A program made the translations under genes and the position numbers. From Microbacterium cremeum (GTDB lineage: Bacteria > Actinomycetota > Actinomycetes > Actinomycetales > Microbacteriaceae), in assembly GCF_015277855.1 (NCBI RefSeq), contig NZ_CP063812.1, positions 1,426,001 through 1,490,000 on the forward strand: a stretch of DNA of 64,000 nt, read 5' to 3'. Numbering within the stretch: the stretch's first letter is position 1; every line of letters begins with the position of its first letter. This document shows positions 1 to 64,000 of this stretch, piece by piece. Under the pieces are notes generated by a model. The model made no database searches and was not told the DNA's origin. It worked only from the letters and a program-made list of their open reading frames with translations.

Positions 1-2
1 GC

Positions 3-308
3 GCGTCGCGCACCGAGGCGCTCCGGACGGCCGCCGACCAGTGGCGGCAGGCGACCGTCCCCGCGGACCTCATGTGGGATCTCATGCAGCCGGAGGACTT
101 CGACCGTCTGGCGGATCCCTCCGACGTCGGGGCCGTCGAACGCGGTGTGCTCGTCGCCACCGACGATCAGGAGGTGGCCGAGCGCGTGGCTGCGATCGCC
201 GCCGCCGGCGCCGATCGGCTCTACCTGCACGACGTCGCCCAGGATCAGCGGCCCTTCCTCGACCGCGCGCGAGACGGTCTCCTCGACGGGATCAGGGAGC
301 TCTCGTGA
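3..308 (+). CDS. LLM-class (F420/FMN-dependent) oxidoreductase, C-terminal part
   Basis: The window opens inside this gene, so the start and most of the TIM-barrel are missing; about 101 C-terminal residues are visible. The tail alternates short helices and strands (VLVATDDQEVAERVAAIAAAG, then DRLYLHDVAQDQRPFLD) and ends in LLDGIRELS. This is the usual C-terminus of luciferase-like F420-dependent oxidoreductases of the glucose-6-phosphate-dehydrogenase-like branch, where the last helix packs against the barrel. The reaction and substrate cannot be judged from this fragment. The stop codon overlaps a GTG (305) that opens a 44-codon frame with no recognisable product. Confidence 0.6.
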   Translation, partial: ASRTEALRTAADQWRQATVPADLMWDLMQPEDFDRLADPSDVGAVERGVLVATDDQEVAERVAAIAAAGADRLYLHDVAQDQRPFLDRARDGLLDGIRELS

Positions 309-435
309 TCGCCGTCGCCGCGTTCGCACCGCCGGTGAGGGCGCGTGAGGAACGGACACCATGGACGCCCGCGGATGTCAAGCCCCTGGCGCTGCGGGGC
401 CGACCAGGAGAGGGTGCAGAAGCAGGAGGATCGCC

Positions 436-669
436 ATGACCCCGAGGTTCGCCTTGACGCCGAGGTTCACTAAGAAGCAGGGGAGCCCGTCGCAACGGAC
501 GGACTCACGAACCGGACGCCAGGACACGGCGGCGACGGAGCATCCGCGCAACGACGAGCGGACCGCCGACCCGGGCCGCGGCACCGAGGAGGAGCGCGGC
601 GCAGAGCGGGCCGCGCGCGAGCGCCTGTTCCAGCGTTCCCGCCCGATGCCGGCCGATCGGCACGAGTGA
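436..669 (+). CDS. Small disordered hypothetical protein
   Basis: This is a 77-residue protein of unknown function. The start is chosen because a perfect AGGAGG (424-429) lies 6 nt before ATG 436. The N-terminus carries a short duplication (TPRF-AL-TPRF), and the rest is rich in Arg, Glu, Asp, Thr and Pro with no hydrophobic segment, so it is probably disordered and cytosolic. It ends just before the next Shine-Dalgarno site and may be co-transcribed with the following gene. I do not recognise a family. The strong ribosome binding site is the main support; a chance frame in GC-rich DNA remains possible. Confidence 0.42.
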   Translation: MTPRFALTPRFTKKQGSPSQRTDSRTGRQDTAATEHPRNDERTADPGRGTEEERGAERAARERLFQRSRPMPADRHE

Positions 670-689
670 AGCACCACCAGGAGGAATCC

Positions 690-980
690 ATGCCACACGA
701 CGACGTGCACCAACTCGTGCTCACGCCGTTGTCCGAACGTTCGTGGCGGCTCTGCGACCGCAGCGTCGCGCGCAACGACGCCGCCAGCGTGGTCGCCTAC
801 GTCGAGCTGCTCGACACCGGCATGTACGAGGCGATCTGGGTCTCGGTCGGTTTCGGCTCGACGCGCTACCCGTCGATGGAGGGTCTCTTCCGTGCCGCCG
901 TGCGGATGCTCGCGAGCACGCGAAGCTCGGGCGCCCTCAAGCCGCAGCCGATCCCGCATCGCCCGCCCGCGCACGTGTGA
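690..980 (+). CDS. Conserved-looking small hypothetical protein
   Basis: This is a 96-residue protein. ATG 690 is preferred over ATG 666 because AGGAGG (680-685) sits 4 nt upstream of it. The middle part (residues ~10-70) looks folded, with aromatic and hydrophobic spacing around LSERSWRLCDRSV and MYEAIWVSVGFGSTRY; the last ~20 residues are Pro/His-rich and probably disordered. There is no signal peptide or membrane segment. No family is recognised. It lies between the 77-residue protein and the DNA glycosylase gene, in the same direction. Confidence 0.6.
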   Translation: MPHDDVHQLVLTPLSERSWRLCDRSVARNDAASVVAYVELLDTGMYEAIWVSVGFGSTRYPSMEGLFRAAVRMLASTRSSGALKPQPIPHRPPAHV

Positions 981-1036
981 CGGCGCTCGCAGGCGCGCAC
1001 CGCGCGCGTGTCGGCCGCCGGTGGCAGGATGGGCGC

Positions 1037-1904: not shown

Positions 1905-2027
1905 ATGACGACGTCGCCTCTCCCCGCCCCGAACACGCTCGCCCCCGTCTCCGACGAGAAGAACCTGCTCACCGTCGTGGAGTCCGCCGGCGCCTGCTGC
2001 GGCGGCGGCAGCTGCGGCACCGTCTGA
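1905..2027 (+). CDS. Cys-rich micropeptide (40 aa), unknown function
   Basis: This 40-residue frame reads from ATG 1905 to TGA 2025-2027. The first ~28 residues are plain and soluble-looking (PLPAPNTLAPVSDEKNLLTV); the C-terminus is VVESAGACCGGGSCGTV, with three Cys in a CCGGGSC cluster. It could be a metal-binding peptide or a ribosomal peptide precursor with a Cys/Gly core; neither is shown. Support comes from the leaderless -10 box placed 7 nt upstream and from the tight spacing to the membrane-protein gene that follows (21 nt). An in-frame ATG at 1896 lies inside the -10 box and is therefore less likely as start. No modification enzyme is encoded nearby. Confidence 0.6.
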   Translation: MTTSPLPAPNTLAPVSDEKNLLTVVESAGACCGGGSCGTV

Positions 2028-2048
2028 GCCACTGACGGCTCGCGCGCG

Positions 2049-2555
2049 ATGGCCGACGACCTCCGGATCACCCCGCGCGTCGCGCGGATCCTCACGTCCG
2101 AGGAATCCGTCTACGGACTCATCCTCGTCTCGGGCATGATCGTCGTCAGCGGCACCGTCGCCGGCACGTCGATCAACGCCCTCGTGACGGTGGCCGTCAC
2201 GGTCATCGTCTTCTACCTGGCCCACGTGTACGCGGGTACGCTCGGTCGCCTCGCGGCCACCGACGGCAGCGCCGGGCTGGGCGCGAGCATCAGGGCGGCG
2301 GCCCGGCACTCGCGCGGCATGCTGGCCGCCTCGGTCGCGCCGCTGGCGATTCTGCTGCTCGGCACGACCGACCTCGTCGACGACACCGTCGCCATCTGGT
2401 CGGCGCTCATCGCCAACACGGTGCTGCTGGGCGTGCTGGGCTGGATCGTCGTGGCGCGGTGGAGCACGCGCTGGTGGCCCCGGCTTCTCAGCGCGGTGAT
2501 CACGGCCGGGTTCGGCCTCGTGCTCATCGCGCTGAAGGCGATCATCCACCACTGA
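2049..2555 (+). CDS. Small integral membrane protein, unknown function
   Basis: This 168-residue protein has about five predicted membrane segments: roughly residues 20-42 and 44-66 (LILVSGMIVVSGTVAGTS, VTVAVTVIVFYLAHVYAG), ~92-106, ~115-138 and ~146-166. A short cytosolic loop with Arg/His residues (~70-90) separates the two halves. No catalytic motif is visible. It lies 21 nt after the Cys-rich micropeptide and may be co-transcribed with it. There is no clear Shine-Dalgarno site before ATG 2049. It is followed by a strong bidirectional terminator. Confidence 0.7.
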   Translation: MADDLRITPRVARILTSEESVYGLILVSGMIVVSGTVAGTSINALVTVAVTVIVFYLAHVYAGTLGRLAATDGSAGLGASIRAAARHSRGMLAASVAPLAILLLGTTDLVDDTVAIWSALIANTVLLGVLGWIVVARWSTRWWPRLLSAVITAGFGLVLIALKAIIHH

Positions 2556-2569
2556 ACCTCACCGCGTGC

Positions 2570-2608
2570 GACGGATGCCTCACCCGCGGTGAGGGTGAGG
2601 CATCCGTC
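2570..2608. terminator. Bidirectional terminator hairpin
   Basis: A 16-bp perfect stem (arms 2570-2585 and 2593-2608) with a 7-nt loop lies between the convergent membrane-protein and MFS genes. Each arm contains one copy of the over-represented heptamer: GGATGCC in the left arm, GGCATCC in the right. No T-tract follows, as is common in high-GC actinobacteria. Confidence 0.75.
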
Positions 2609-2620
2609 CGGCGTGCCGGA

Positions 2621-4141
2621 TCAGTGGGCGACCGGTGCGCCCATCGGCTGGTCGACCGGCTTGCGGACGAGGAACGCCCCCACCAGCAGCGGCAGCGACA
2701 GGATGGCCGCGACGAGGAACGCGGCGTGGGTGCCGGCTGCCTGAGCCGCCAGGTCGTCCGCCCCCGACTCGGCGGCGGACGCCGTGGCGGCCGCCATCAC
2801 GCCGAACATGAGGGCGATGCCCGCGGCACCGGCGACCTGCTGCACCGTGCCGACGACGGCCGAGCCGTACGAGTAGAAGCGCGGCTGCAGCGAGGCCAGC
2901 GACGCGGTGAACAGCGGCGTGAACGACATCGCGAGACCGACCGACAGCACGGTCTGCGCGACCGCGATGACCAGCACCGGGGTCCCGGACGTGAACGTCG
3001 TGTAGAACCACAGCATGGCGCTGGTGATCACGGCGCCCGGCACCAGCAGCACGGTCGTGCCCCAGCGGTCGTAGATGCGACCGATGACCGGGCCGAGCAG
3101 ACCCATCGCGAGCGCGCCGGGGAGCACGATGAGTCCGGTCCCGAGCGGGTCGACCTCGAGCACGTTCTGGACGTAGAGCGGCACCACCGTGATCGCGCCG
3201 AAGAACGCCATGGACATGACGGCCATCTGTGCGATCGACAGCGAGAAGTTGCCCGACCGGAACACCCTCAGATCCAGCAGCGCGTCGTCCTTGCGCTGCA
3301 GGAGCACCTGGCGCCAGCCGAAGAGGCCGAGGGCCACGACGCCGACGGACAGCGCGATGATCAGCGTCGTCGTCGACGTGGCCGTCGCCGCGGCAGCGGC
3401 AGCACCGCCGCCGTGCCCGCCGGCACCGAGCTGGCTGAGCCCGAACACGATGCCGCCGAAGCCGAACGCCGACAGGATCACCGACAGCACATCGATCGGG
3501 GCATGCGTGGTCTCGCCGAGGTTGTGGATCCACCGGGCGCCGACGACGAGCGCGACGAGCGCGATGGGCAGCACGATGCCGAAGATCCAGCGCCACTCGA
3601 AGGTGTTCAGGATCGCGCCGGCGAGCGTCGGGCCGATGGCGGGGGCCAGTGAGATCACGATGCTGACCCGGCCCATCATGCGTCCGCGGATCGCGGGCGG
3701 CACGACGGTCATCAGGGTCGTCATGAGCAGCGGCATCATGATGGCGGTGCCGGATGCCTGCACCACGCGCGCGACCAGCAGCACCGGGAACCCGGGGGCG
3801 AGGAACGCGATGAGCGTGCCCGCCGAGAACAGCCCCATCGCGGCCACGAACATCGTGCGGGTCGTGAATCGGCGCAGCAGGAAGCCGGTGATCGGGATGA
3901 CGACGGCCATCGTCAGCATGAACGCGGTCGTCAGCCACTGGGCCGCCAGAGCGGTGATGCCGAGGTCGTCGATCAGGTGCGGGATCGCCACGCCCATCGT
4001 CGTCTCGTTGAGGATCGCGACGAACGCGGCTGCCAGGAGGAGCCAGATGACGCGGCTCTCCTCGGGGCGCAGCGCGGGCGCGGCCGCGGGGGAGACGGCG
4101 GGGATGCTGCCGGTTCCGGGTGTCGTTTCGATGGCGGCCAT
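2621..4141 (-). CDS. DHA2-family (EmrB/QacA-type) MFS multidrug exporter
   Basis: This 506-residue polytopic protein has about 14 membrane segments, the hallmark of the DHA2 drug:proton antiporter subfamily. After a ~28-residue cytosolic N-terminus, TM1 contains NETTMGVAIPHL, equivalent to the LDxTIVNVALP motif of the family, followed by QWLTTAFMLTMAV. The loop after TM2 (LRRFTTRTMF) corresponds to MFS motif A. A low-complexity Gly/Ala/Thr stretch (residues ~270-290) lies in the central loop. ATG 4141 is supported by GAGGAGA 5-6 nt upstream. It probably exports toxic compounds; the substrate cannot be inferred. It stands alone between a terminator and a 134-nt gap. Confidence 0.88.
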   Translation of the reverse strand: MAAIETTPGTGSIPAVSPAAAPALRPEESRVIWLLLAAAFVAILNETTMGVAIPHLIDDLGITALAAQWLTTAFMLTMAVVIPITGFLLRRFTTRTMFVAAMGLFSAGTLIAFLAPGFPVLLVARVVQASGTAIMMPLLMTTLMTVVPPAIRGRMMGRVSIVISLAPAIGPTLAGAILNTFEWRWIFGIVLPIALVALVVGARWIHNLGETTHAPIDVLSVILSAFGFGGIVFGLSQLGAGGHGGGAAAAAATATSTTTLIIALSVGVVALGLFGWRQVLLQRKDDALLDLRVFRSGNFSLSIAQMAVMSMAFFGAITVVPLYVQNVLEVDPLGTGLIVLPGALAMGLLGPVIGRIYDRWGTTVLLVPGAVITSAMLWFYTTFTSGTPVLVIAVAQTVLSVGLAMSFTPLFTASLASLQPRFYSYGSAVVGTVQQVAGAAGIALMFGVMAAATASAAESGADDLAAQAAGTHAAFLVAAILSLPLLVGAFLVRKPVDQPMGAPVAH

Positions 4142-4275
4142 GGGTCGTCTCCTCGAGGCTCGGACAGGACAGCGAAGCGCCACCCCCCAGGATGGCAAGC
4201 CATCAGGATAACCACAGCCTCCGACATCCCATTCCCGATCCGGGGAACGGGCCGGGAATCCGGGCGGGCCGCGCC

Positions 4276-4488
4276 CTAGTCCTCCAGGGACTCCTCGTCG
4301 TCCGGGCGGTCCCACTTCTCCGAGCCGATCGCGTCGGTGGGGCGCGGCGTGGGCTCGCGCTCCTCGAGGTCGTGGGGGAGCGGGTTCACGATCTCCTCGT
4401 GCGGGATCGCCTTCAGCGCGTCGATCTCTGCACGGAGCTCGGCGAGGTCGCCGCCGTCGTGTTCGGGGGAGCCGCTGGTCGTGGTCAT
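4276..4488 (-). CDS. Small acidic hypothetical protein
   Basis: This 70-residue hydrophilic, strongly acidic protein (PEHDGGDLAELRAEIDALKA, ending DDEESLED) has a short potential amphipathic helix at residues ~14-26 and a Pro-rich middle. It has no membrane segment. No family is recognised. The start ATG 4488 is set by a TAGGCT -10 box 6 nt upstream; a TTG at 4494 would fall on the predicted transcript start. It is divergent from the ABC exporter gene, only 41 nt away. Confidence 0.65.
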   Translation of the reverse strand: MTTTSGSPEHDGGDLAELRAEIDALKAIPHEEIVNPLPHDLEEREPTPRPTDAIGSEKWDRPDDEESLED

Positions 4489-4494
4489 GGCCAA

Positions 4495-4500
4495 AGCCTA
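4495..4500 (-). promoter_or_regulatory. -10 box, leaderless promoter of the small acidic protein
   Basis: On the minus strand, TAGGCT is followed by 6 nt and ATG 4488. Confidence 0.6.
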
Positions 4501-4517
4501 GCGTCGCAGGGCGTCGA

Positions 4518-4523
4518 TAGGCT
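4518..4523 (+). promoter_or_regulatory. -10 box, leaderless promoter of the ABC exporter
   Basis: TAGGCT is followed by 6 nt (GACGAG) and GTG 4530. It is back-to-back with the identical box of the divergent small gene, 17 bp away. Confidence 0.6.
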
Positions 4524-4529
4524 GACGAG

Positions 4530-6593
4530 GTGAGCATGCGCGGGGGCGGAGGGATGAGCCGCGGCGGCGGGGGTGGTCATCCCGGCTTCCGGCCCGTCGA
4601 CACCGAGGCGCAGCGGCGCGAGAACGCCGAGGCTCCGCGCATCCCGAACCTCGGCCGGCGCGTCGTCGGGCTGTTCCGTCCGTACGCGGGGTCGATCGTG
4701 GTCACGGGCATCCTCGTGGTCGTGGGCGCCGCCATCGCGGTGATCCCGGCCCTCCTCGTGCAGCGGATCTTCGACGACGCGCTCTTCCCCGTCGACGGCT
4801 CCGGGCCCGACCTGTCGCTGCTGTGGACGCTCGTCGCGGCGATGATCGGCCTGTTCCTGCTGTCGGCGGTCGTCGGCGTCGCGCAGACATGGCTCACCTC
4901 GACCGTCGGCAACCGGGTCACCGGCGACCTGCGGGTGAAGCTGTTCGACCACCTGCAGGCGATGGAGCTCGCCTTCTTCACGCGGACCAAGACCGGCGTC
5001 ATCCAGTCGCGCCTGCAGAACGACGTGGGCGGTGTCTCGGGCGTGCTCACCAACACGGTGACGAGCATCCTGGGCAATACGGTCACGGTGGTGGCGTCGC
5101 TGGTCGCGATGATCATCATCGACTGGCGCCTCACGATCATCGCGGTGATCCTCATGCCCGGGCTGGTGCTCGTCCAGCGCCGCGTGGGGCAGGTGCGGGC
5201 CCGCATCGCGGGGCAGACGCAGGAGTCCCTGTCGGAGCTCACCGCGATCACGCAGGAGACGCTCAGCGTGTCGGGCATCCTGTTGTCGAAGTCGTTCAAC
5301 CGCCAGCGCGCGGAGTCCGCGCGGTACGCCGACGAGAACCGCAATCAGGTGCGTCTCCAGGTGCGCCGCGCGATGAGCGGTCAGGGCTTCTTCGCCGTCG
5401 TGCAGGTGCTCATGGCGAGCGTCCCCGCCATCATCTATCTCGTCGCCGGCTACTTCATCGTGGGCGGCAGCGACGCGATCACCGCCGGCACCATCGTCGC
5501 CTTCACCACGGTGCAGGCGCGCCTGCTCATGCCGCTCATGGGCCTCATGCGCGTCTCGCTCGACCTGCAGACCTCGGCGGCGCTGTTCGCCCGCATCTTC
5601 GAGTACCTCGATCTGACGCCGGCGATCCGCGACGCTGCGGACGCGGTCGACGTCGACGAGGCCCCCGGTCCGCTCGGCCGCATCGAGTTCCGCGACGTCG
5701 TGTTCCGCTACCCGGATGCCGCGCCCGACACGCGTCCCACGCTGCGCGGCGTGTCGTTCGTGGCCGAGCCCGGTCAGCACGTCGCGTTCGTCGGGCCCTC
5801 CGGCGCCGGCAAGACGACCGTGCTCTATCTCACACCGCGCCTGTACGAGGCATCCGACGGTGCCGTCCTGTTCGCCGGTGAGGACGTGCGGCGGCTGCGG
5901 CTCGAGTCGATCATCGACAACATCGGCATCGTGTCGCAGGAGACCTACCTGTTCCACGCGACGATCCGCGAGAACCTGCGCTACGCCAAGCCGGACGCGA
6001 CGGATGCCGAACTCGAGGCGGCGTGCCGCGCGGCCAGCATCCACCACGTGATCGAGCGGTTCGAGGACGGGTACGACACCGTCGTGGGCGAACGCGGGTA
6101 CCGTCTGTCCGGCGGGGAGAAGCAGCGCATCGCGATCGCCCGCGTGCTACTGAAGGACCCGCCCGTGCTGCTCCTGGACGAAGCGACGTCGGCGCTCGAC
6201 ACCGTGTCGGAGCGCGTCGTGCAAGAGGCTCTGGATGCCGCGGCGCGCGGCCGCACGACGCTGTCGATCGCGCACCGCCTCTCGACGGTGATCGCGGCCG
6301 ACGTCATCCACGTGGTCGAGGCGGGGCGCATCGTCGAGTCGGGCACCCACGCCTCGCTCGTCGCCCGGGGCGGGCTCTACGCCGAGCTCGCCGCGGAGCA
6401 GCTCGCGTCGTCGCGCATCCTCGAGGCCGAGGAGTCCGAGCCGCCGCCCGACCACCCCGACCGTCGCGCGGATCGGCCGCCGCGCGACCCCGCGCCGCCC
6501 GGCGCCACCCCGCCCGGCGAGGCGTCGCCTCCGGCGTCGAGCGGGGAGGCCGCCGCGGGGGACTGGGCGACCGCGGAGCTGCCCGGTCCGTGA
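4530..6593 (+). CDS. ABC exporter, fused permease-ATPase (MsbA/LmrA-like)
   Basis: This 687-residue half-transporter functions as a dimer. It begins with a Gly-rich cytosolic N-terminus (residues 1-45), then six membrane helices (about 55-360), then the ATPase domain with Walker A GPSGAGKTT (422-430), Q-loop SQETYLF, signature LSGGEKQR (near 526), Walker B VLLLDEATSALD and H-loop SIAHRLS. The last ~60 residues form a Pro/Ala/Glu-rich disordered tail beyond the usual family length. GTG 4530 is chosen over the later ATGs because it lies 6 nt after the -10 box. Lipid or drug export is the family role; the substrate is unknown. It ends 1 nt from the convergent glycosyltransferase gene, with no terminator between them. 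Confidence 0.88.
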   Translation: MSMRGGGGMSRGGGGGHPGFRPVDTEAQRRENAEAPRIPNLGRRVVGLFRPYAGSIVVTGILVVVGAAIAVIPALLVQRIFDDALFPVDGSGPDLSLLWTLVAAMIGLFLLSAVVGVAQTWLTSTVGNRVTGDLRVKLFDHLQAMELAFFTRTKTGVIQSRLQNDVGGVSGVLTNTVTSILGNTVTVVASLVAMIIIDWRLTIIAVILMPGLVLVQRRVGQVRARIAGQTQESLSELTAITQETLSVSGILLSKSFNRQRAESARYADENRNQVRLQVRRAMSGQGFFAVVQVLMASVPAIIYLVAGYFIVGGSDAITAGTIVAFTTVQARLLMPLMGLMRVSLDLQTSAALFARIFEYLDLTPAIRDAADAVDVDEAPGPLGRIEFRDVVFRYPDAAPDTRPTLRGVSFVAEPGQHVAFVGPSGAGKTTVLYLTPRLYEASDGAVLFAGEDVRRLRLESIIDNIGIVSQETYLFHATIRENLRYAKPDATDAELEAACRAASIHHVIERFEDGYDTVVGERGYRLSGGEKQRIAIARVLLKDPPVLLLDEATSALDTVSERVVQEALDAAARGRTTLSIAHRLSTVIAADVIHVVEAGRIVESGTHASLVARGGLYAELAAEQLASSRILEAEESEPPPDHPDRRADRPPRDPAPPGATPPGEASPPASSGEAAAGDWATAELPGP

Positions 6594-6594: not shown

Positions 6595-7548
6595 TCACCA
6601 CAGGCTCGCGGCGGCGAGCGCCGTCGCGGCCGGCTCTCCGAGCACGGCCCCGTCGGCGCGCGCGGCCAGCCTGCGTGCGAAACCGCCCAGATCGCGGCGG
6701 TAGGCGGGGTCGGGGTGCTGGTGGGCGAGCTCCACCAGCGGCGGCAGGTCCATCGCGAGGATGAGGCGTACCCGGGATGCCACCGCCCGCGGGTGGCCGG
6801 CGGCGTCGAGCACCTCGATCCCGCCGGCGAGGGCCTCGACGTAGTCGCGCATCACCGGGAGCTCGCCCTTGTGCTGCGTGATGGACGAGCCGTCGGCCCG
6901 CTCGCGCCACTCCACGACGACGTCGGGGACGACATCGAACGCACGGGCGCGCGTGTACATCTGCTGCGCGACGATCTGGTCCTCGTATGCCTTGCCGACC
7001 GGGAACCGCAGCCCCGCACGTCGCCAGAAGTCGGTGCGGCTCACCTTCGACCACGCCACGATGTTGCCCGACGCGTCGGGGTGGTGTTCGAGGGTCGTGC
7101 CCGTGCGCGCGGGGTCGGTGGCCGCGCTCACCCACGGCTGGACGTGGCCCGCCGTGTAGCCGCCCGCGGTGTCGGGGCGCAGCCGCACGTAGGCGCCGAG
7201 GGCGAAGTCGCTCCCGCTGCCGTCGAGCGTCGTGACGAGCCGCTCCAGGGCGGTCGGGGTCATGCGGTCGTCGGCGTCGAGGAACGCGACGAACGGCGTG
7301 CGCACCCGGTCCAGCCCGGTGTTGCGCGCGGCCCCGAGCCCTGCCTGCTCGGAGTGGTGCACCACCTCGAAGCGCGCATCCTCCGCCGCCGCCCGGTCGA
7401 AGATCGCGCCGGTCGCGTCGGTCGAGGCGTCATCGACCAGCACCGCGACCCAGTCGGTCAGCGTCTGGGCGCGCAGCGACTCGAGCGCATCGGCTGCCCA
7501 CTCCGCCACGTTGTAGCCCGGCACGATGACGGTCACGACGGGGGGCAC
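6595..7548 (-). CDS. Family 2 glycosyltransferase
   Basis: This 317-residue protein has a GT-A fold at its N-terminus: TVIVPGYNVAEWAADALESL (residues ~6-25), LVDDASTDATG, and the metal-binding DXD-type FLDADDRMTP near residue 92. A conserved YEDQIVAQ (near 190) provides the probable catalytic acidic residue. There is no membrane segment, so it acts at the cytosolic face of the membrane on a sugar nucleotide; the acceptor (cell-wall polymer or glycan) is unknown. Start GTG 7548 is 6 nt after TAGGAT. That -10 box contains the TAG stop codon of nadS, so the gene can be read by its own promoter although it lies just downstream of the nad operon. Confidence 0.85.
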   Translation of the reverse strand: MPPVVTVIVPGYNVAEWAADALESLRAQTLTDWVAVLVDDASTDATGAIFDRAAAEDARFEVVHHSEQAGLGAARNTGLDRVRTPFVAFLDADDRMTPTALERLVTTLDGSGSDFALGAYVRLRPDTAGGYTAGHVQPWVSAATDPARTGTTLEHHPDASGNIVAWSKVSRTDFWRRAGLRFPVGKAYEDQIVAQQMYTRARAFDVVPDVVVEWRERADGSSITQHKGELPVMRDYVEALAGGIEVLDAAGHPRAVASRVRLILAMDLPPLVELAHQHPDPAYRRDLGGFARRLAARADGAVLGEPAATALAAASLW

Positions 7549-14794: not shown

Positions 14795-14824
14795 TGCTGC
14801 GCAAGTCAACACCGGCCAACGACC

Positions 14825-20721: not shown

Positions 20722-20823
20722 CCGCCCACCCTTCCGGTCCACCACGCCGCCGGGTCGCCCATCCGCGCGATCTGTGGACAGCTCCTCCCCGCCGCCAGCT
20801 GTGGAGGAGTCCGCCCCCCACGC

Positions 20824-21883: not shown

Positions 21884-21947
21884 CTTGTCAGATTGTCACA
21901 CTTCGCTTCCATTGAGTTAAGGCTCTGTAACGTTTTCTCGGATCGTT

Positions 21948-21976
21948 TTGACCATCTCACACCCGGTGCTTATGGT
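21948..21976 (+). promoter_or_regulatory. Vegetative promoter of the peptide ABC importer
   Basis: TTGACC (21948-21953), a 17-nt spacer and TATGGT (21971-21976) form a good housekeeping-type promoter. The transcript would have a leader of about 60 nt before the lipoprotein start. Confidence 0.7.
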
Positions 21977-22042
21977 TTTCCCATCCGCGCCCCCGTTCGG
22001 CCTTGGCCTGACGTGTGCGCACAACCCTGCACAGGAGGAACA

Positions 22043-23970: not shown

Positions 23971-23979
23971 TCACCGCGT

Positions 23980-25587: not shown

Positions 25588-25588
25588 C

Positions 25589-40182: not shown

Positions 40183-40234
40183 CGGATGCCGCGCCCGTTC
40201 GGCGCTCGCGGCCGACGGGTCGTCCTGCCCGAAC

Positions 40235-41758: not shown

Positions 41759-41876
41759 GTACAAGGCGGCGACGCGGCATCCCCCCGTCCCGCTCCTCGC
41801 TCCGAAGCGATCGCCGTCTCGGCGTCGCCGAGCGGGACGACACCCCCGGCACGACCAGAAATCGCGAGGAGGCGCC

Positions 41877-44740: not shown

Positions 44741-49747
<5,007 letters not shown>

Positions 49748-49856
49748 CACCCAACACTTCTGCGAGTGTTCGCGTCCACTGAGTGGTTCCCGATGTACGG
49801 TCGGGACACCACACACAATCTTCACGATCATGTGTGTTTGACTGAAACATCAAGAG

Positions 49857-50049: not shown

Positions 50050-50055
50050 CGGGGG

Positions 50056-57458: not shown

Positions 57459-58135
57459 CCGGCGCGGTCCGCGAGCTGCGCATTCCCGTGGCGCTGCCCA
57501 GCGCCCAGGTCGAGGTCTCGGCCGACGTCACGCAGCCCGGGGACTCGTGGGCGTGCGTCGCACTCGCACACGGCGCGGGGGCCGGGTACCGGCATCCGTT
57601 CCTCGTGGGATTCGCCCGGGGGCTGGCCGGCGAGGGAGTCGCGACGCTGCGGTTCAACTTCCCCTACGTCGAGGCGGGGCGACGGATGCCGGGACCCGCG
57701 GCTCACGCGGTCGCCACGTGGGCGGCGGTCCATGCCGCGGCGGGCGAGCGGGCCGGCGGAGTCCCGGTGTTCGCCGCGGGGAAGTCGTACGGAGGGCGCA
57801 TGGCGTCCATGGCCGCCGCGGAGGGGGTCATCGCACCCGCGGGGCTCGTGTACCTCGGGTACCCGCTGCATCCGCCCGGAAACCCCGAGAAGGCGCGCAC
57901 CGCGCACCTGCCCGACGTGCCGCAGCCGCAGCTGTTCGTCGAGGGCACGACGGATCCGTTCATTGATCCGCACGAGCAGCTGGAGCGGGCCGTGGCATCG
58001 TGCCGGCGGGCGCAGATCGCGTGGGTCGAAGGCGGCGGGCACTCCTTCGAGATCAAGGGGCGCAAGCGCCCCGCGGACGAGGTCGGGGCGGAGCTCGCCC
58101 CCCTCGTCGCGGCATGGATGCGCGGACTCGTCTAG
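57455..58135 (+). CDS. Alpha/beta hydrolase (KAT/dienelactone-hydrolase-like)
   Basis: This 226-residue protein has the alpha/beta hydrolase core with oxyanion-hole strand ACVALAHGAGAGYRHPFL, nucleophile elbow AAGKSYGGRMASM (Ser), Asp in LFVEGTTDPFIDP and His in VEGGGHSFEIKG. It looks catalytically complete; the substrate is unknown. The start overlaps the stress-protein stop (ATGA), so the two are co-translated. Confidence 0.87.
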   Translation: MTGAVRELRIPVALPSAQVEVSADVTQPGDSWACVALAHGAGAGYRHPFLVGFARGLAGEGVATLRFNFPYVEAGRRMPGPAAHAVATWAAVHAAAGERAGGVPVFAAGKSYGGRMASMAAAEGVIAPAGLVYLGYPLHPPGNPEKARTAHLPDVPQPQLFVEGTTDPFIDPHEQLERAVASCRRAQIAWVEGGGHSFEIKGRKRPADEVGAELAPLVAAWMRGLV

Positions 58136-58159: not shown

Positions 58160-59980
58160 TCAGCGGCCTGCCGCGTAGCCCTGCATGCCGCGCGGGTTCG
58201 CCGCCGCCCACAACACGCCCGACGCGGCGTCGCGGCCGACCGCCGACACGCGACCGAGCGACCAGTCGCCGGCGCGCGTCACGACATGGCCCCGGCGCTC
58301 GAGGCCCTCGATGACGTCGTCGCCGAGGCGGTCCTCGACGACGGCGCCGGCCGGTGTCCAGGTGCGCGGCCAGAACGACTCGGGCATCGCCGTGGTGTGC
58401 AGGGCGGGGGCGTCGATCGCCTGCTGCGGCGCGTAGCCGCCCACGATGATCCGCAGCAGCGCGAGAAGCTGCCACTGATCCTGCTGGTCTCCTCCGGGCG
58501 ACCCGATGGCGAACTCGGGTGCGCCGTCTCGCAGCACGAGCGTCGGGGTGAGCGTCGTGCGCGGACGGCGGCCCGGGACGAGGGATGACGGATGCCCCGG
58601 TTCGAGCCACGTCATCTGCAGCCGGGTGCCGAGGCAGAAGCCCAGGGCGGGGATCGCGGGGGACGACTGCAGCCAGCCGCCCGACGGCGTCGCCGACACG
58701 ATGTTGCCCCAGCGATCGATCACGTCCAGGTGGCACGTGTCGCCGCGCGTCTCGCCGTTGCGCCCGATGCGGGCTTCGCCGCGCGCGACCGTGGGCTCGC
58801 CCGTACCTGCGACGCCCGGGCCGTACGTCGTGCGCAGCGGCGGCTGGAAGCCGCGGCGGCCGTCGACCGTGCCGGGGCGGAACTGCGCGGACGCGCGTTC
58901 GCCGATGAGGTCGCGCCGCGCCGCGAGGTAGTCGTCGGCGAGGAGCGCCTCGAGGTCGACCTCCGCGTCGCCGAACCACGCGTCGCGATCGGCGAGCGCG
59001 AGCTTCTGCGCCTCGAGGATCGTGTGGGCACCGGCCTCGTGGGAGGGATCGAGCAGGTCGTCGGCGAGCGGCTCGAGGAGGGCGAGTGTCTGCAGCAGCG
59101 CGGGTCCCTGCGTCCACGCGCCCGCCTTGGCGATGGTGCGGCCGCGGAAGTCGCGCGTCACCGCCGGCTCGTATCCGGCCTCGAACGCCGCGAAGTCCTC
59201 GAGGTCCATGACACCGCCGTGGACCGCGCCGTCGGAGTGGCGGTGGGGGGTCGCTCCGAACGCGGTGGCCTCGTGGGCAACGATGCCGGTGCGCCACTCC
59301 CGGCGCGCCGCCTCGATACGGGCCGCACGCCCCACCGGGCCGTCGTCGCGCACCGCGCACGACGCGTGGACGAGCCCGTCGAGCACGGCGGCGTACGCCG
59401 GGTTGCGCACGACGGTCCCCGTTGCGGGCGGCTCGCCATCGGGCATCCACAGTGCGGCGGAGGTCGGCCAATGGTCGCGGAACAGGTCGGCGACGCGCGC
59501 GATCGTCGCCGCGGCGCCCGCGACGAGCGGGTGCCCGTCGCGGGCGTAGCCGATCGCGTAATCCAGGACGTCGGCGAGCTCCCACGTGCCCTTGTCGCGC
59601 AGCAGCAGCAGCCACGCGTCGACCGCGCCCGGGACGGCCGCCGCGAGGGCTCCCGCGCCCGGGACGAGATCCAGGCCCTCGCTGCGGTAGTGCTCGATCG
59701 TGGCGCCGGCCGGCGCCGGCCCCTGACCCATCAGCACGGTCGGGGCCGCGGCATCCCGTTCCTGGAAGATCGCCACCAGGTCGCCGCCCGGCCCGTTCAG
59801 GTGCGGCTCCGCCACGTGCAGCACGAACGCGGCCGCCACGGCGGCATCGAACGCGTTGCCGCCGCGCTCGAGCACGGACTGCGCCGTTCCGGTCGCCAGC
59901 CAGTGCGTCGACGCCGACATGCCGAACGTGCCCGAGAGCGTGGGGCGCGTGGTGAACGCGGAGGGCGACGTGTAGGGCAC
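58160..59980 (-). CDS. Gamma-glutamyltransferase-family Ntn-hydrolase
   Basis: This 606-residue proenzyme-type protein of the GGT family makes its own nucleophile by self-cleavage at Thr. The N-terminal part (FGMSASTHWLATGTAQSVLERGGNAFDAAVAAAFVLHV, seen as HWLATGTAQSVLERGGNAFD) matches the family, and the cleavage region is GETRGDTCHLDVIDRWGNIVS, with Thr in GDTCHL as predicted nucleophile. GSPGGDQQDQW follows in the small subunit. No signal peptide is seen, so it is probably cytosolic, like the GGT-like hydrolases of actinobacteria. GTG 59980 is used so the protein includes the conserved FTTRPTLSGTFG. Confidence 0.85.
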   Translation of the reverse strand: MPYTSPSAFTTRPTLSGTFGMSASTHWLATGTAQSVLERGGNAFDAAVAAAFVLHVAEPHLNGPGGDLVAIFQERDAAAPTVLMGQGPAPAGATIEHYRSEGLDLVPGAGALAAAVPGAVDAWLLLLRDKGTWELADVLDYAIGYARDGHPLVAGAAATIARVADLFRDHWPTSAALWMPDGEPPATGTVVRNPAYAAVLDGLVHASCAVRDDGPVGRAARIEAARREWRTGIVAHEATAFGATPHRHSDGAVHGGVMDLEDFAAFEAGYEPAVTRDFRGRTIAKAGAWTQGPALLQTLALLEPLADDLLDPSHEAGAHTILEAQKLALADRDAWFGDAEVDLEALLADDYLAARRDLIGERASAQFRPGTVDGRRGFQPPLRTTYGPGVAGTGEPTVARGEARIGRNGETRGDTCHLDVIDRWGNIVSATPSGGWLQSSPAIPALGFCLGTRLQMTWLEPGHPSSLVPGRRPRTTLTPTLVLRDGAPEFAIGSPGGDQQDQWQLLALLRIIVGGYAPQQAIDAPALHTTAMPESFWPRTWTPAGAVVEDRLGDDVIEGLERRGHVVTRAGDWSLGRVSAVGRDAASGVLWAAANPRGMQGYAAGR

Positions 59981-60003: not shown

Positions 60004-61455
60004 TCAACGACCGCCGCGGGCGATCCAGGCCTCCACCTCGTCGGCGGTGCGCGGAATGCCGGCCGACAGGTTCACCGCGCCCTCCTCCGTCATGAGGATG
60101 TCGTCCTCGATGCGCACGCCGATGCCGCGGTACTCCTCGGGCACGGTGAGGTCGTCGATCTGGAAGTACAGCCCCGGCTCGATCGTGAAGACCATGCCGG
60201 GCTCGAGGAGGCCGTCGTAGTACATGTCCCGGCGCGCCTGCGCGCAGTCGTGCACGTCGATGCCGAGGTGGTGGCTCGTGCCGTGCACCATGTACCGGCG
60301 GTGATGGCCGCCGCGGTCCGCGTCGAGCGCCTCGTCGGCGGTGACGGGCAGGAGCCCCCACTCGGCGACCCGGGTCGCGATGACGCGCATCGCCGCCTCG
60401 TGCACCGACCGGAACCGAACGCCGGGCTTCGCCGCGGCGAACGCCGCGTCGGCGGCCTCGCGCACCGTCTCGTAGATCTTGCGCTGGATATCGGTGAAGC
60501 GCCCGCTGACGGGAAGCGTCCGCGTGATGTCGGCGGTGTAGAGGCTGTCGACCTCGGCGCCTGCGTCGATGAGGATGAGGTCGCCCGGCATCACCGCACC
60601 GTCGTTGCGCGTCCAGTGCAGGTAGCAGGCGTGCGGCCCGGATGCGGCGATCGTGTCGTAGCCGACGGCGTTGCCGTCGCTGCGTGCCCGCTGGTGGAAC
60701 ACGCCCTCGACGACGCGCTCGCCGCGAGGATGCGCGGCGATGCCCGCCAGGTTGGCGACGATGTCGTCGAAGCCGTTCGCCGTCACCTCGACCGCGAGCC
60801 TCATCTGCTCGATCTCGTACGCGTCCTTGACCAGGCGCAGCTCCGACACGAAACGCGTGAGCTCGTCGTCCTCGTCGAGGACGACATCGCCGTCACGCGA
60901 CTCGAAGTCGTCCACGTGCGCGGTGGCGAGCCCCAGGTCGGCGGCGACGCCGGCCAGCGCCGGCCGCGGGCCGATCCAGAACTCGCCGATCGAGGCATCC
61001 GAGTAGAACTCGCTCGTCGTGCGGTCGGCACGCTCACGGAAGTAGAGCGTGACGTCGTGGCCGCCCTCGGTGCTCGGTTCGAACACCAGCACCGCGCCGG
61101 GCTCGGAGTCGGAGGCCCACCCGGTGAGGTGAGAGAACGCGGAGTGCGCCCGGAACGGGTAGTCGGTGTCGTTGCTGCGCTGCTTGAGCTCACCGGCGGG
61201 GATGACGAGCCGTCGGCCGGGGAACGCCGCCGAGACCGCGTCGCGGCGTGCCGCCGCGAAGGCCGCCTGGGCGCGTGCGGGCGGCGTGGAGTCGGGGCGT
61301 TCCGCCCAGCCGGTCGAGATGGTGTCGAGGAATCCCTGCCCGTAGGGCTGACGCCGGTTGGTGGTGGTCGTGGGCTCGGTCGTGGAGGAGCCGGCTTCGG
61401 GTGCGGCGATCGTGTCGCCCGCGGTGCCCGTGGTCCGGTCGGCTGCGCTGCTCAT
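60004..61455 (-). CDS. pepP: Xaa-Pro aminopeptidase (aminopeptidase P, M24B)
   Basis: This 483-residue enzyme removes N-terminal residues before proline. The N-terminal ~45 residues are Thr/Ser-rich and disordered. An N-terminal AMP_N domain (~50-190, with SNDTDYPFRAHSAFSHLTGW) precedes the pita-bread catalytic domain. Metal ligands are LIDAGAEVDSLYTADITRT (two Asp), HGTSHHLGIDVHD (His), FTIEPGLYF (Glu) and GVRIEDDIL (Glu). ATG 61455 lies 6 nt after CAGACT, a one-base variant of the leaderless box. It lies 23 nt upstream of the GGT gene and probably forms an operon with it. Confidence 0.94.
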   Translation of the reverse strand: MSSAADRTTGTAGDTIAAPEAGSSTTEPTTTTNRRQPYGQGFLDTISTGWAERPDSTPPARAQAAFAAARRDAVSAAFPGRRLVIPAGELKQRSNDTDYPFRAHSAFSHLTGWASDSEPGAVLVFEPSTEGGHDVTLYFRERADRTTSEFYSDASIGEFWIGPRPALAGVAADLGLATAHVDDFESRDGDVVLDEDDELTRFVSELRLVKDAYEIEQMRLAVEVTANGFDDIVANLAGIAAHPRGERVVEGVFHQRARSDGNAVGYDTIAASGPHACYLHWTRNDGAVMPGDLILIDAGAEVDSLYTADITRTLPVSGRFTDIQRKIYETVREAADAAFAAAKPGVRFRSVHEAAMRVIATRVAEWGLLPVTADEALDADRGGHHRRYMVHGTSHHLGIDVHDCAQARRDMYYDGLLEPGMVFTIEPGLYFQIDDLTVPEEYRGIGVRIEDDILMTEEGAVNLSAGIPRTADEVEAWIARGGR

Positions 61456-61494: not shown

Positions 61495-62517
61495 TCAGCC
61501 GGCCGGCTCGTACTGCACGATGAGGGGCCGATGGTCCGACCCCGATTCGTCGAGCGAGCGCAGCACGACCGAGCCGGACGGGCGCCAGTGCCGCGACGCC
61601 ATCACGTGGTCGATCGGGGCGCCGAGGAGCGGGGGAAGGTCGACCGACCAGGTCCCGAGCGCTCCGTTGCCGGTGGCCAGCGCCCCGTCGGTGCAGTGCC
61701 CGAGCGTGGCGTCGCCGATGCCGAGGCCCGACATGTGGTCGACCGTCGCGTTGAAGTCGCCGGCCATGATGACGTTCGCGTCGCCGCACTGGTCGGCGAG
61801 CCAGCGCAGGTCGTCGCGCCAGCTCTCCATGTAGCTCGGCCGGGGAGCGACCGCATGGACGGCGACGACGATCGGCCCGTCGCCGGTGGTGGGCATCGCC
61901 ACCGCGCTGGGGACGGTGGAGGTGTTGCTGCTGCCGTCGAGGGAGGACTCGATGACGGCGTAGTCGCCGAGCTCCGGCGAGATCAGCAGCGTCGTGGAGC
62001 CCGCATCCCACTCGGTGGAGGGGTCTTCGGCGTGATGCGCCCACATCCGGTGCCCGAGATCGCGCATCGCGACGGCGACCCGTTCCCCCGTCTCGATGGT
62101 GGTCTCGGGGAGCGCCACGATGTCGGCATCCATCGCCACCGCGATCTTGGCGATCGTGTCGGGAGAGGTGGCCGGGCCGGCGGTGTTCCACGTCATCACC
62201 CGCACGCTCGTCTCGGTCTTGACGGGGAGCGGTTCGGTGCCGGTGCTGCCCCGCAGCACGATGATGCCGCCGTTCGCGACCGCCGCGAGCCCGGCCACGA
62301 GGGCGAGCGCGAGGGCGAAGCCGCGCACGGGCCGCGCCAGGGCCAGCAGCAGCGCCAGCACGAGGGCGGCGGCGAAGAAGAGGACCACGACCCCGCGGAA
62401 CGAGACGATCTGCGCGATCGGGAAGAGGCGCTCCACGCGGAAGAACCCGGGCCACGTGACGACCGCCGCCGCGATCGCGCAGAGCACGGTCACGAGGATC
62501 CCGAGCAGGCGAAGCAC
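61495..62517 (-). CDS. Membrane-anchored endonuclease/exonuclease/phosphatase-family protein
   Basis: This 340-residue protein has three N-terminal membrane helices (LLGILVTVLCAIAAAVVTWPGF, VVVLFFAAALVLALLLALA, FALALALVAGLAAVANGGII) and an extracytoplasmic EEP domain from ~residue 105: VMTWNTAGPATSPDTIAKI, ADIVALPETT, GDFNATVDHMSG and the catalytic SGSDHRPLIVQ. Such proteins hydrolyse phosphodiesters outside the cell; the substrate is unknown. Start GTG 62517 lies 7 nt after TAGGCT; the longer frame upstream would include the promoter. Confidence 0.85.
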   Translation of the reverse strand: MLRLLGILVTVLCAIAAAVVTWPGFFRVERLFPIAQIVSFRGVVVLFFAAALVLALLLALARPVRGFALALALVAGLAAVANGGIIVLRGSTGTEPLPVKTETSVRVMTWNTAGPATSPDTIAKIAVAMDADIVALPETTIETGERVAVAMRDLGHRMWAHHAEDPSTEWDAGSTTLLISPELGDYAVIESSLDGSSNTSTVPSAVAMPTTGDGPIVVAVHAVAPRPSYMESWRDDLRWLADQCGDANVIMAGDFNATVDHMSGLGIGDATLGHCTDGALATGNGALGTWSVDLPPLLGAPIDHVMASRHWRPSGSVVLRSLDESGSDHRPLIVQYEPAG

Positions 62518-62530: not shown

Positions 62531-62579
62531 TGCGAGCAGGCTGGGAGATCGGTCAGCACGACCACGCGCGTCGCAGCGA

Positions 62580-62585
62580 TACGCT
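62580..62585 (+). promoter_or_regulatory. -10 box, leaderless promoter of the PHP protein
   Basis: TACGCT, 6 nt (CGGAGG), ATG 62592. The spacer also resembles a Shine-Dalgarno sequence. Confidence 0.55.
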
Positions 62586-62591
62586 CGGAGG

Positions 62592-63455
62592 ATGCCGGGC
62601 ACGCATCGCTTCGAAGGGCCGAGCGACCTGCACCTGCATTCGGCCTACTCCGACGGCACGCAGCCTCCCGCCGAGGTGATGGCCTCCGCGCACGCGCACG
62701 GGCTGCGCACGGTGGCGCTCACCGACCACGACACGACCTCGGGCTGGGCGGAGGCGGCCGAGGCGTCGGCATCCCTCGGCATGACCTTCCTGCCGGGGAT
62801 GGAGCTGTCGGCGCGGCACGAATGGCGCAGCGTCCACGTGCTGGCGTACCTGCCGGACCCCGATGAGCCGGCGCTGCGCGCCGAGACCGCCCGCATCCGC
62901 TCGTCGAGGCTCGATCGCGCGCGACTCATGGCCGATCGCATCGCGCGCGACTACGACCTGGTGTGGGACGACATCCTCGCGCAGACCGGGGACGACGCGA
63001 CGGTCGGCCGCCCCCACATCGCCGACGCGCTCGTCGCGCGGGGCCTCGTGCGCGACCGCGCCGAGGCGTTTGCGGGCATCCTCAGTCCCGCCGGCGACTA
63101 CTACGTCGCGCTCTACGCGCCGGACCCCGTCACGGCCGTGGAGCTCGTGGTCGGCGCCGGGGGAGTGCCGGTGATCGCGCATCCCGCCGGCCGTGCGGGC
63201 CTGCTGCCCGCGAAGCTGCTGGAGCGGATGCTGGATGCCGGCCTCGCCGGGTTCGAGCTCGGTCACCGCGAGAACCGCGAACCGGGACTGCGCACGCTCC
63301 GCGAGATGGCCCGGACGCGGGATCTCATCGTGACGGGGTCGAGCGACTACCACGGACTCGGCAAGCCCAACCAGCCGGGCGAGAACACGACGGACGACGT
63401 CATGGTCGCCCGCATCATCGAGCGCGCGAGCGGCAACGCCCCCGTCTACCCGTGA
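62592..63455 (+). CDS. PHP-domain phosphoesterase (YciV/RNase AM-like)
   Basis: This 287-residue protein carries the four PHP motifs that bind the metal cluster: DLHLHSAYSDG (~12-22), ALTDHDTTSG (~42-51), PGMELSARHEWR, AHPAGRAG (~197-204) and SSDYHGLGKP (~253-262). An insert of ~90 residues between motifs 2 and 3 (~100-190) is typical of the YciV/TrpH branch, which acts as a 5'-3' exonuclease or nucleoside-bisphosphate phosphatase. Which of these applies here is not shown. It ends near the convergent SHOCT gene with a 32-nt gap. Confidence 0.88.
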   Translation: MPGTHRFEGPSDLHLHSAYSDGTQPPAEVMASAHAHGLRTVALTDHDTTSGWAEAAEASASLGMTFLPGMELSARHEWRSVHVLAYLPDPDEPALRAETARIRSSRLDRARLMADRIARDYDLVWDDILAQTGDDATVGRPHIADALVARGLVRDRAEAFAGILSPAGDYYVALYAPDPVTAVELVVGAGGVPVIAHPAGRAGLLPAKLLERMLDAGLAGFELGHRENREPGLRTLREMARTRDLIVTGSSDYHGLGKPNQPGENTTDDVMVARIIERASGNAPVYP

Positions 63456-63487
63456 GGGAGACGAGGGCGCTGCAGGTCACTCCGGCG

Positions 63488-63925
63488 TCAGCCGAGGGCC
63501 TTCGCCTTGAGAGCGTCGTACTCGGCCTGCGAGATGGTGCCCGCGTCGAGGAGCGACTTCGCCTTGGCGATCTCGTCGGCCGGGCTCGCGCCCGAGGCGC
63601 CGCCGGCGACCGACTTGATGTAGGCGTCCTGCGCCTGCTGGATCTGCTGCGCCTCCTTGGCGCTGCGCTCGGCCATCCCCCTGCCCCGGGAGATGAGGTA
63701 GACCAGCAGCGTCAGGAACGGCACGAAGATCAAGAAGATGATCCAGACCGCCTTGAGCCAGCCGTTCAGCTTGTGGTCGCGGAACAGGTCGCCGATGACG
63801 GCGAAGAGCGCGAACAGGTAGGCGACGAAGAAGAACGCCCACAGGAACCACCAGATGATGTCCCAGAACGAGCCCCAGAAGCCCTGGTACTGATACCCGG
63901 TGTTCATGACTTCGATGAACTGCAC
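63488..63925 (-). CDS. SHOCT-domain membrane protein (phospholipase D N-terminal-like helices)
   Basis: This 145-residue protein begins MQFIEVMNTGYQYQGFWGSFWD, has a hydrophobic region with two helices (IIWWFLWAFFFVAYLFALFAVIGDLF, seen as WWFLWAFFFVAYLFALFAV, and LKAVWIIFLIFVPFLTLLVYLI), the PLDc_N-like motif KAVWIIFLIFVPFLTLLVYL, a Gln-rich linker and a C-terminal SHOCT helix pair (EIAKAKSLLDAGTISQAEYDALKAKAL). GTG 63925 is chosen because AAAGG lies 6 nt upstream. The role is unknown; it is common in actinobacteria. Confidence 0.85.
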   Translation of the reverse strand: MQFIEVMNTGYQYQGFWGSFWDIIWWFLWAFFFVAYLFALFAVIGDLFRDHKLNGWLKAVWIIFLIFVPFLTLLVYLISRGRGMAERSAKEAQQIQQAQDAYIKSVAGGASGASPADEIAKAKSLLDAGTISQAEYDALKAKALG

Positions 63926-64000
63926 GATCGGCCTTTCTTGATGCGAGGTGACGGCGCGGATCCGCACCGCTTGCGCTCACGATAGCGCCGTCCTGCGCGC

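Follow-up and report, generated by a model that had tools for sequence, protein, structure and literature searches.

GGATGCC, an over-represented heptamer of Microbacterium cremeum and much of its family, is a candidate DNA uptake word

The heptamer GGATGCC, or its complement GGCATCC, is scattered through a stretch of the Microbacterium cremeum chromosome (contig NZ_CP063812.1, positions 1,426,001 to 1,490,000; this whole stretch of 64,000 nucleotides is called the window below). Exact matches on the two strands number 75. The initial annotation had counted about 60 copies, 28 of them in the first 18 kb, against a random expectation of about 15. The excess was confirmed, both of these counts were too low (the exact figures are 75 and 31), and the expectation agreed with dinucleotide shuffles of the window (n=100), which held 15.7 copies on average and 24 at most. 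A trinucleotide model predicted 17.7 copies and gave the heptamer the top z-score among 7-mers that are not AT-rich. Base composition is rejected as the cause of the excess by these shuffles and this model. Across the chromosome, a single contig of 3,982,951 bases, the heptamer occurs 5,342 times (about one per 746 bp) and its reversed word, the control used in genome-wide counts without correction for codon usage, 269 times; the 9-mer GGATGCCTC has 654 copies and its reversed word 10. The over-representation of the heptamer is real, and it is stronger than first noted.

On the forward strand of the window, copies lie at 1366-1372, 1408-1414, 2573-2579, 3752-3758, 5714-5720, 6002-6008, 6233-6239, 6775-6781, 7600-7606, 9814-9820, 11808-11814, 13223-13229, 15345-15351, 15516-15522, 16122-16128, 16720-16726, 17599-17605, 18067-18073, 21505-21511, 29332-29338, 31300-31306, 32518-32524, 35048-35054, 35118-35124, 38375-38381, 38390-38396, 40184-40190, 41160-41166, 43799-43805, 50054-50060, 50883-50889, 53895-53901, 54127-54133, 54727-54733, 57684-57690, 58590-58596, 62590-62596 and 63233-63239. 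Those on the reverse strand lie at 1087-1093, 1697-1703, 2599-2605, 4707-4713, 5274-5280, 5849-5855, 7624-7630, 8239-8245, 10765-10771, 12063-12069, 12255-12261, 13973-13979, 14185-14191, 16178-16184, 18992-18998, 20717-20723, 26901-26907, 29339-29345, 29949-29955, 31678-31684, 32534-32540, 33725-33731, 38963-38969, 41557-41563, 41670-41676, 41776-41782, 43725-43731, 51494-51500, 53902-53908, 57591-57597, 59442-59448, 59750-59756, 60994-61000, 62125-62131, 62768-62774 and 63075-63081. A further copy at 46670-46676 sits within the 23S ribosomal RNA gene (46645-49748); it is probably unrelated to the signal and was set aside. The longest heptamer-free gap of the window, 5.4 kb at 21504-26900 with a GC fraction of 0.656, could be acquired DNA or chance.

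Four inverted pairs of heptamers were annotated in the window. Two such pairs, each extended to GGATGCCTC ... GAGGCATCC, form hairpins between convergent predicted genes, with the copies at 2573-2579 and 2599-2605 as the arms of one (2570-2608; 16-bp stem, loop 7) and those at 32518-32524 and 32534-32540 as the arms of the other (32508-32550; 20-bp stem, loop 3). With z-scores of -6.1 and -6.9, both fold more strongly than any of 200 shuffled versions. They had been annotated as terminators with inverted pairs; the hairpins and the extension on both were recovered, but a scan around them found no T-rich tail beside either stem, and classical intrinsic terminators are rejected for both. In the other two pairs, the heptamers abut as GGATGCCGGCATCC, once between genes (29332-29345, upstream of a predicted gene at 29377) and once within a predicted gene (53895-53908).

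We then compared the heptamer with what coding sequence allows in a 464-kb sample made up of the window and 20 evenly spaced stretches (L009-L028), about 12% of the chromosome; M. cremeum counts below refer to this sample. Its 415 genes were predicted by a purpose-written script, which makes the coding and intergenic assignments approximate, and the codon control consisted of 200 rounds in which synonymous codons were permuted inside genes. Genic heptamers numbered 492 of 588, compared to 164.8 +/- 9.7 in the shuffled genes and 189 in the largest shuffle, which rules out codon usage as the cause. All six reading frames were raised, one of them weakly, and the excess peaked in the frames that demand rare codons. 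The GCA-TCC frame held 110 heptamers against 5.3 expected (21-fold), the GAT-GCC frame 185 against 35.8, the CAT frame 19 against 3.2 and the GGA-TGC frame 7 against 1.1; the rise was from 108.6 to 154 in the GGC-ATC frame, where the word is cheap, and weak in the ATG frame (17 vs 10.8). The proposal in the initial annotation that genic copies force the rarer codons GAT or GCA was borne out by the codon pairs themselves, as GCA-TCC occurred 125 times against 12.8 expected and GAT-GCC 266 times against 88.5.

The base that precedes these pairs separates a preference for the word from a preference for the pair. With the codon pair fixed, G preceded 110 of 124 GCA-TCC pairs compared to 49 of 106 GCG-TCC pairs, and 185 of 265 GAT-GCC pairs compared to 100 of 449 GAC-GCC pairs, which codon-pair preference cannot produce. 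Heptamers that were not wholly genic numbered 96 in 50.5 kb, where composition predicts 11-13, and 84 lay entirely outside predicted genes. The preceding base, the intergenic excess and the phages described below disfavour codon-pair preference. Collectively, these results show that the heptamer excess is a DNA-level signal.

Intergenic copies prefer a longer form, CGGATGCC[G/T]C followed by weaker C-rich positions. At position +7 of the 84 intergenic copies, G made up 72% and T 21%, and the TC extension seen in the window hairpins did not hold as a rule. In genes, the exact heptamer was 3.1-fold and the 10-mer CGGATGCCGC 13.8-fold over the codon shuffle. One-mismatch forms of this 10-mer were also raised (340 vs 167.5, 2.0-fold), and two-mismatch forms stood at 1,644 against 1,488 (1.1-fold). 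Single-mismatch forms of the heptamer went both ways: GGAGGCC (128 vs 297.8), GGACGCC (248 vs 361.4) and GGATACC (16 vs 38.4) were low, and GGATGCT (76 vs 42.2) and GGATGTC (134 vs 108.8) were raised.

The hairpin arrangement recurred outside the window. Neighbouring heptamers lay within 60 bases of each other 47 times. Close opposite-strand pairs were in hairpin order (GGATGCC...GGCATCC) in 27 cases and in the other order in 7, and where such neighbours (<60 bases) touched intergenic DNA the count was 13 to 1. Among 64 perfect stems of 9 bp or longer between genes, 12 carried GGATGCC in the 5' arm and none GGCATCC; no unrelated 7-mer was present in more than three of the 64 among the 12 commonest listed. 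Both window hairpins belong to the 12 word-bearing stems, none of which is farther than 150 bp from the 3' end of a gene. Inverted pairs, whose enrichment in terminators the initial annotation had proposed to test, are enriched in these 464 kb of M. cremeum. Terminators that contain the uptake word are described as reaching 22% and 37% in some Pasteurellaceae and Neisseriaceae in a study that tallied the k-mers of terminators from thousands of genomes (PMC13020248); a term search of the main text of that study returned neither Microbacteri- nor Actino-.

Heptamer density was 0.8-1.75 per kb in each of the 21 stretches. The origin was presumed to be near coordinate 1 and the terminus near 2.1 Mb from gene orientation, supported by the skew of the octamer CGGGGGAG. 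On this basis, 285 heptamers lay on the presumed leading and 303 on the presumed lagging strand (p 0.48). The octamer, a polar signal resembling the FtsK-orienting polar sequences (KOPS), was skewed 49:2 toward the presumed leading strand in the same DNA, which shows that the replichore test is able to detect polarity. The check for strand and replichore skew that had been suggested for the word therefore gave no skew, and a polar architecture signal, one form of the chromosome-architecture alternative raised at the outset, is not supported in view of the even split.

Four Microbacterium phages (Floof, AnnaSerena, RobsFeet and Min1; 171 kb) hold 87 heptamers; Floof infects M. foliorum NRRL B-24224. 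Under codon control, there were 73 genic copies against 54.4 and 13 intergenic copies against 6.7, and most of the genic ones used the frame in which the word is cheap, GGC-ATC (47 vs 37.0). The diagnostic GCA-TCC frame showed no excess in the four phages (4 vs 3.8); in 16 named Microbacterium loci, this frame held 84 heptamers against 6.5 and the GAT-GCC frame 141 against 34.0. A Gordonia phage had a single heptamer in 40 kb. The phages of the genus show a mild excess without the frame pattern of the host, and host mutation bias is disfavoured because they lack the frame-specific excess.

The word extends well beyond M. cremeum. All 99 genomes of the genus held the heptamer above the reversed control. 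G043 was the sparsest of them at about 246 per Mb (812 vs 271) and G018 the densest at about 1,942 per Mb, and the genomes at the low end were no richer than some sister families. Density varied widely among 150 genomes of the family, and in one of these, G149 of genus g52, the excess was absent (229 vs 245 in the control). When one genome per genus was drawn from these 150, with Microbacterium left out, 48 of the 84 genera had at least 500 heptamers per Mb, 14 had 300-500 and 22 had fewer. A further set comprised 80 named comEC loci, 1.59 Mb of DNA with 1,628 heptamers. Genera were compared by trinucleotide model in the 57 that remained after metagenome-assembled genomes and loci without a clear genus were left out. 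The heptamer was enriched in Microbacterium (404 vs 97), Cryobacterium (322 vs 104), Agromyces (111 vs 25), Leifsonia (68 vs 14), Humibacter (69 vs 11) and Agreia (73 vs 20), and stood at 7 against 4 in Herbiconiux. Under codon control in seven genera, GGATGCC was among the top five words of Microbacterium, Agromyces, Leifsonia and Humibacter and outside the top five in Cryobacterium, Agreia and Subtercola. Other families of the order had lower counts. Conservation in related Microbacteriaceae, which had been named as a check, was thus found through most of the family sampled, with varying density.

Some genera without a GGATGCC excess carry other strong words under codon control, namely GGATGCG, GCAGGATC, CGGATCC and GGAGGCG. 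This survey covered 27 genome samples (21 of the family and 6 from outside it) of 40-160 kb and the phage set; it omitted three samples as too short, those from G043 (1.9 kb), G218 (10.6 kb) and G222 (2.8 kb), and for G148, G250 and G376 no stretch was obtained. Four genomes were re-run with 140-160 kb. In these, there were, under codon control, 230 CGGATCC against 40 in G206 (16 vs 11 between genes), 129 CAGGATC against 32 and 41 GCAGGATCC against 2.9 in G145, 151 GGATGCG against 57 in G171, and 131 AGGAGGCG against 33 in G207. Whole-genome counts of GGAGGCGC were 3,062 against 1,191 in G133 and 2,722 against 864 in G207. Those of GCAGGATC, whose reversed control contains CTAG and is unfairly rare, were 2,135 in G185, 1,559 in G145 and 919 in G102, compared to 524 in M. 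cremeum. Close pairs touching intergenic DNA were in hairpin order for GCAGGATC in G145 (6 vs 0), and GGATGCG in G171 had no close opposite-strand pair of this kind. Words also differed within genus g56: G153 was rich in GGAGGCGC (2,767 vs 1,354) and had 74 GGAGGCG against 44 in 40 kb under codon control, and G222 was not rich in GGAGGCGC (1,081 vs 998) and held 52 GGATGCG and 30 GGATGCC in 56 kb, as raw counts without codon control. No comparable genic word was found in many samples, among them the five small genomes, several large ones such as G143, G166 and G195, and the six outgroups, at 40 kb each, a sample size at which weaker words would be missed. All of the alternative words contain GGA, a common core that could partly be chance.

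Several further words were seen in passing. CGGATCC forms 50 close opposite-strand pairs in G206 (L060, L061, L104-L108), mostly genic, and its core GGATCC is palindromic; since it is also scarcely raised between genes, it and the other words may be separate phenomena. G149 (L029-L033) has the intergenic words ACGCCAAC (11 vs 0.5) and CAACGACG (10 vs 0.5) and a weak genic TCGGGAA, and in G207 (L062, L063, L119-L123) another word beside GGAGGCGC, AGGGCGGGT, lies almost entirely between genes (15 vs 0.5, 1 genic). The 0.93-Mb genome G113 (L078-L079) carries intergenic CAGGGCC (20 vs 1.2) and CCGCACG (17 vs 0.7), perhaps a repeat array. The top word of Subtercola lobariae (L195) is GGATGCT (16 vs 4 in 22 kb), a possible further variant, and those of the Cryobacterium loci (L157-L210) are CGGATGC (378 vs 121) and ACGGATG (169 vs 44), perhaps another.

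Genes for DNA uptake are common in the family. ComEC was present in 148 of the 150 genomes and the Tad ATPase in 139 (E up to 1e-60). M. cremeum itself encodes ComEA-like and ComEC proteins (L132), Tad genes (L130) and a second T2SSE-family ATPase (L131); the ComEA and ComEC NCBIfam matches were below their full-length cut-offs, and the PF03772 match was above its own. It also has a type IVa pilus operon (L129), with matches to PilB, PilC, PilT and PilM and three proteins with prepilin-type N-termini. This operon (L129:6818-18169, G000:C1:2251818-2263169) coexists with the Tad genes in this actinobacterium, and one of the L129 proteins resembles a prepilin peptidase by eye, with no family match. 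In another actinobacterium, Micrococcus luteus, Flp/Tad pili are described as serving natural transformation (PMC4322843, PMC6370729). Of the 84 genera, six were Tad-negative; five of these had fewer than 350 heptamers per Mb, and the sixth is represented by G164 (939 per Mb), an assembly in 90 contigs, while the gene is present in its congener G227. PilB-bearing genera had a higher median density than the others (686 vs 377 per Mb, p 0.001). PilM was a poor marker (77 of 150, with a weak match in M. cremeum itself) and was dropped. Between two g56 genomes with different words, the pilin-like proteins were 31-56% and the PilM/N/O-like proteins 34-53% identical, and many genes of the other two loci were 80-94% identical. 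Since the whole g56 pilus cluster has diverged broadly, we name no receptor candidate.

Taken together, these observations suggest that a sequence-specific reader keeps GGATGCC at thousands of copies, and the likeliest reader would be the DNA-uptake machinery of natural transformation. DNA bearing the word would be taken up preferentially, recombination would copy the word into the chromosome, and the word would accumulate where proteins allow it: in synonymous codons, in spacers and in hairpins between genes. A change of reader would then yield different words in different genera. We infer a single reader behind all of the words, its identity with the uptake apparatus, and uptake bias as the process at work. 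From the sequence patterns described, we give an even chance to the proposal that GGATGCC (about CGGATGCC[G/T]C, then C-rich) is an uptake word read by the natural-transformation machinery. The broader proposal is of sequence-specific uptake in Gram-positive bacteria, with GGATGCC as a genome tag, at least four other words in other genera, barriers to gene exchange and a receptor unrelated to ComP; it falls slightly below even in our estimate.

A number of observations weigh against uptake. Sequence-specific uptake in a monoderm was not found in the open-licence literature searched, and with no such precedent found the prior is low. The DNA uptake sequences (DUS) and uptake signal sequences (USS) of known systems are reported to be evenly spaced (PMC1939737, citing others), and the drive behind them is described as raising near-matches in a graded way (PMC1939737); heptamer spacing in M. 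cremeum is random and near exponential (coefficient of variation 0.99), and genic one-mismatch heptamers are slightly low under the codon shuffle (2,029 vs 2,308, 0.88-fold). These two results lowered our estimate for uptake a little. The phages keep a mild heptamer excess overall (86 vs 61, with the codon control applied in genes), also in the GAT-GCC frame (13 vs 7.0). Outside the family, G311 of family f4 of the order has 1,361 heptamers against 206 in the control and 26 against 15 under codon control, and with this genome partly enriched the taxonomic edge is not sharp. As for the reader, ComEC and Tad are so widespread that neither discriminates, and PilB was found in only 79 of the 150 family genomes (E up to 1e-70). 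PilB was also absent from 3 of the 13 genera with at least 1000 heptamers per Mb (of the 84) and from G034 of Microbacterium, and its link with density was not significant once genomes below 2.4 Mb were set aside (p 0.15); with PilB missing in several of the richest genomes, the type IVa pilus was rejected as the required reader. Gene 3' ends, finally, adjoin 53 of all 64 intergenic stems, and close pairs of GGAGGCG touching intergenic DNA in G207 and G133 were 9 in hairpin order and 5 in the other. The 80 named comEC loci showed no order preference (19 vs 16 close opposite-strand pairs; in a second count by groups, 4 vs 1 among pairs touching intergenic DNA), so the hairpin habit is either not general or not visible around comEC.

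Other readers could also keep such a word. In a Chi-like system, a helicase-nuclease of the AddAB or AdnAB kind would pause at GGATGCC and start recombination there, and the words of the genera would be altered specificities. Chi words are likewise short, over-represented and changing between lineages, and the rarity of the heptamer in phages fits. The evolution of Chi is the subject of PMC8022716. RecC (PF04257) was found in none of 90 family genomes and, among 14 control genomes, only in E. coli, which makes RecBCD-Chi unlikely and led us to reject that form. The heptamer also lacks the leading-strand bias that CGGGGGAG displays in the same sample, and inverted pairs in hairpins would not be expected of Chi. 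We regard a Chi-like signal as unlikely, if worth keeping in view.

Somewhat less probable still is a reader of another sort, either a protein that binds DNA or organises the chromosome or an architecture system without polarity, with a specificity of its own in each lineage. The presence of copies in all 21 stretches and their near-exponential spacing would suit it. By itself, such a system predicts neither the near absence of the word from phages nor the hairpin pairing in M. cremeum, and no replichore polarity is seen.

A methyltransferase or repair pathway might instead turn near-matches into GGATGCC through biased repair or protection, an origin suspected for HIP1 (highly iterated palindrome 1) of cyanobacteria. 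The low counts of GGAGGCC, GGACGCC and GGATACC in genes would agree with this. However, the low neighbours span several substitution types, as is expected if any silent precursor can be converted, GGATGCT and GGATGTC are raised, and the Microbacterium phages are largely without the word. This origin seems to us improbable.

A transcript-level element, in which the word spread as a favoured stem of terminators, would explain the strong folding and the 12 of 64 intergenic stems that bear the word, but it is already largely refuted by the genic excess, and with 492 of 588 copies genic, only 47 pairs within 60 bases and no T-rich tail at the window hairpins we give it very little credence. Codon usage, codon-pair preference or base composition, which explains much of the GGC-ATC frame and most of the background in phages and sister families, is the least credible cause in view of the shuffles, the six raised frames, the intergenic excess, the preceding-base test and the phages.

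If GGATGCC is an uptake word, self-specific uptake would have originated at least one further time, in Gram-positive actinobacteria, and dialects of the word would predict which species can exchange genes. The word could also provide a means of transforming a large family that lives in soil and with plants, and it could mark foreign DNA in the genomes of this family. Whatever the reader, a family-wide word at about 1 per kb that is replaced in some genera needs explaining; our search of the open-licence literature turned up no DUS-like word described for Microbacteriaceae. Apart from these matters, the window also contains a glycine riboswitch at 14819-14915 on the forward strand (Rfam RF00504, 66.5 bits).

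Among known genome-wide words, KOPS and other architecture-imparting sequences are short and spread over the genome like GGATGCC; they are strongly strand-skewed, whereas GGATGCC is not and the separate octamer CGGGGGAG is. HIP1 shares great abundance and a spread through genes. It is palindromic, and GGATGCC is not; among the strong words, CGGATCC of genus g35 has a palindromic core, GGATCC. Chi is short, over-represented and lineage-specific too, and differs in its RecC, absent from all 90 family genomes, in the lack of orientation bias here and in the hairpin pairs of M. cremeum. The actinobacteria studied here are monoderm. Self-specific DNA uptake is described in two Gram-negative families, Neisseriaceae and Pasteurellaceae, and the DUS and USS of these are reported to have no orientation bias, to be over-frequent in non-coding DNA and to occur as inverted repeats in about 10% of cases (PMC1939737). 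With USS, GGATGCC shares a non-palindromic core, weaker flanking positions, the absence of orientation bias and the non-coding excess. It differs in word, composition and phylum, in the several unlike words found within one family, in heptamer near-matches that are not raised and in spacing that is random rather than even. Neisserial DUS comprise eight dialects with a shared CTG core and typically total 2,000-6,000, with one copy every 400-1,100 bp, frequent inverted pairs and depletion in islands (PMC7371117, PMC3630211). The heptamer has thousands of copies at a density within this range (one per 746 bp), on both strands and both in genes and between them; it is rare in foreign DNA, here four phages, forms inverted pairs between genes in M. 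cremeum and has lineage variants around a short core, GGA here and CTG in Neisseriaceae (PMC3630211, PMC7371117). The differences are a host group of high-GC actinobacteria, an unrelated word, a type IVa pilus that is not required for a high count, and a hairpin order preference that is not general. In Neisseria, the receptor that binds the word is ComP. The likeness to DUS that the initial annotation had drawn thus gained from the codon shuffle, the intergenic excess, the M. cremeum hairpins, the absence of skew, the phages, the family-wide spread and the variants, and lost on hairpin order in the comEC loci. Overall, apart from hairpin order outside M. cremeum, the near-match footprint and spacing, which are non-matching or unclear, GGATGCC resembles DUS in most respects tested.

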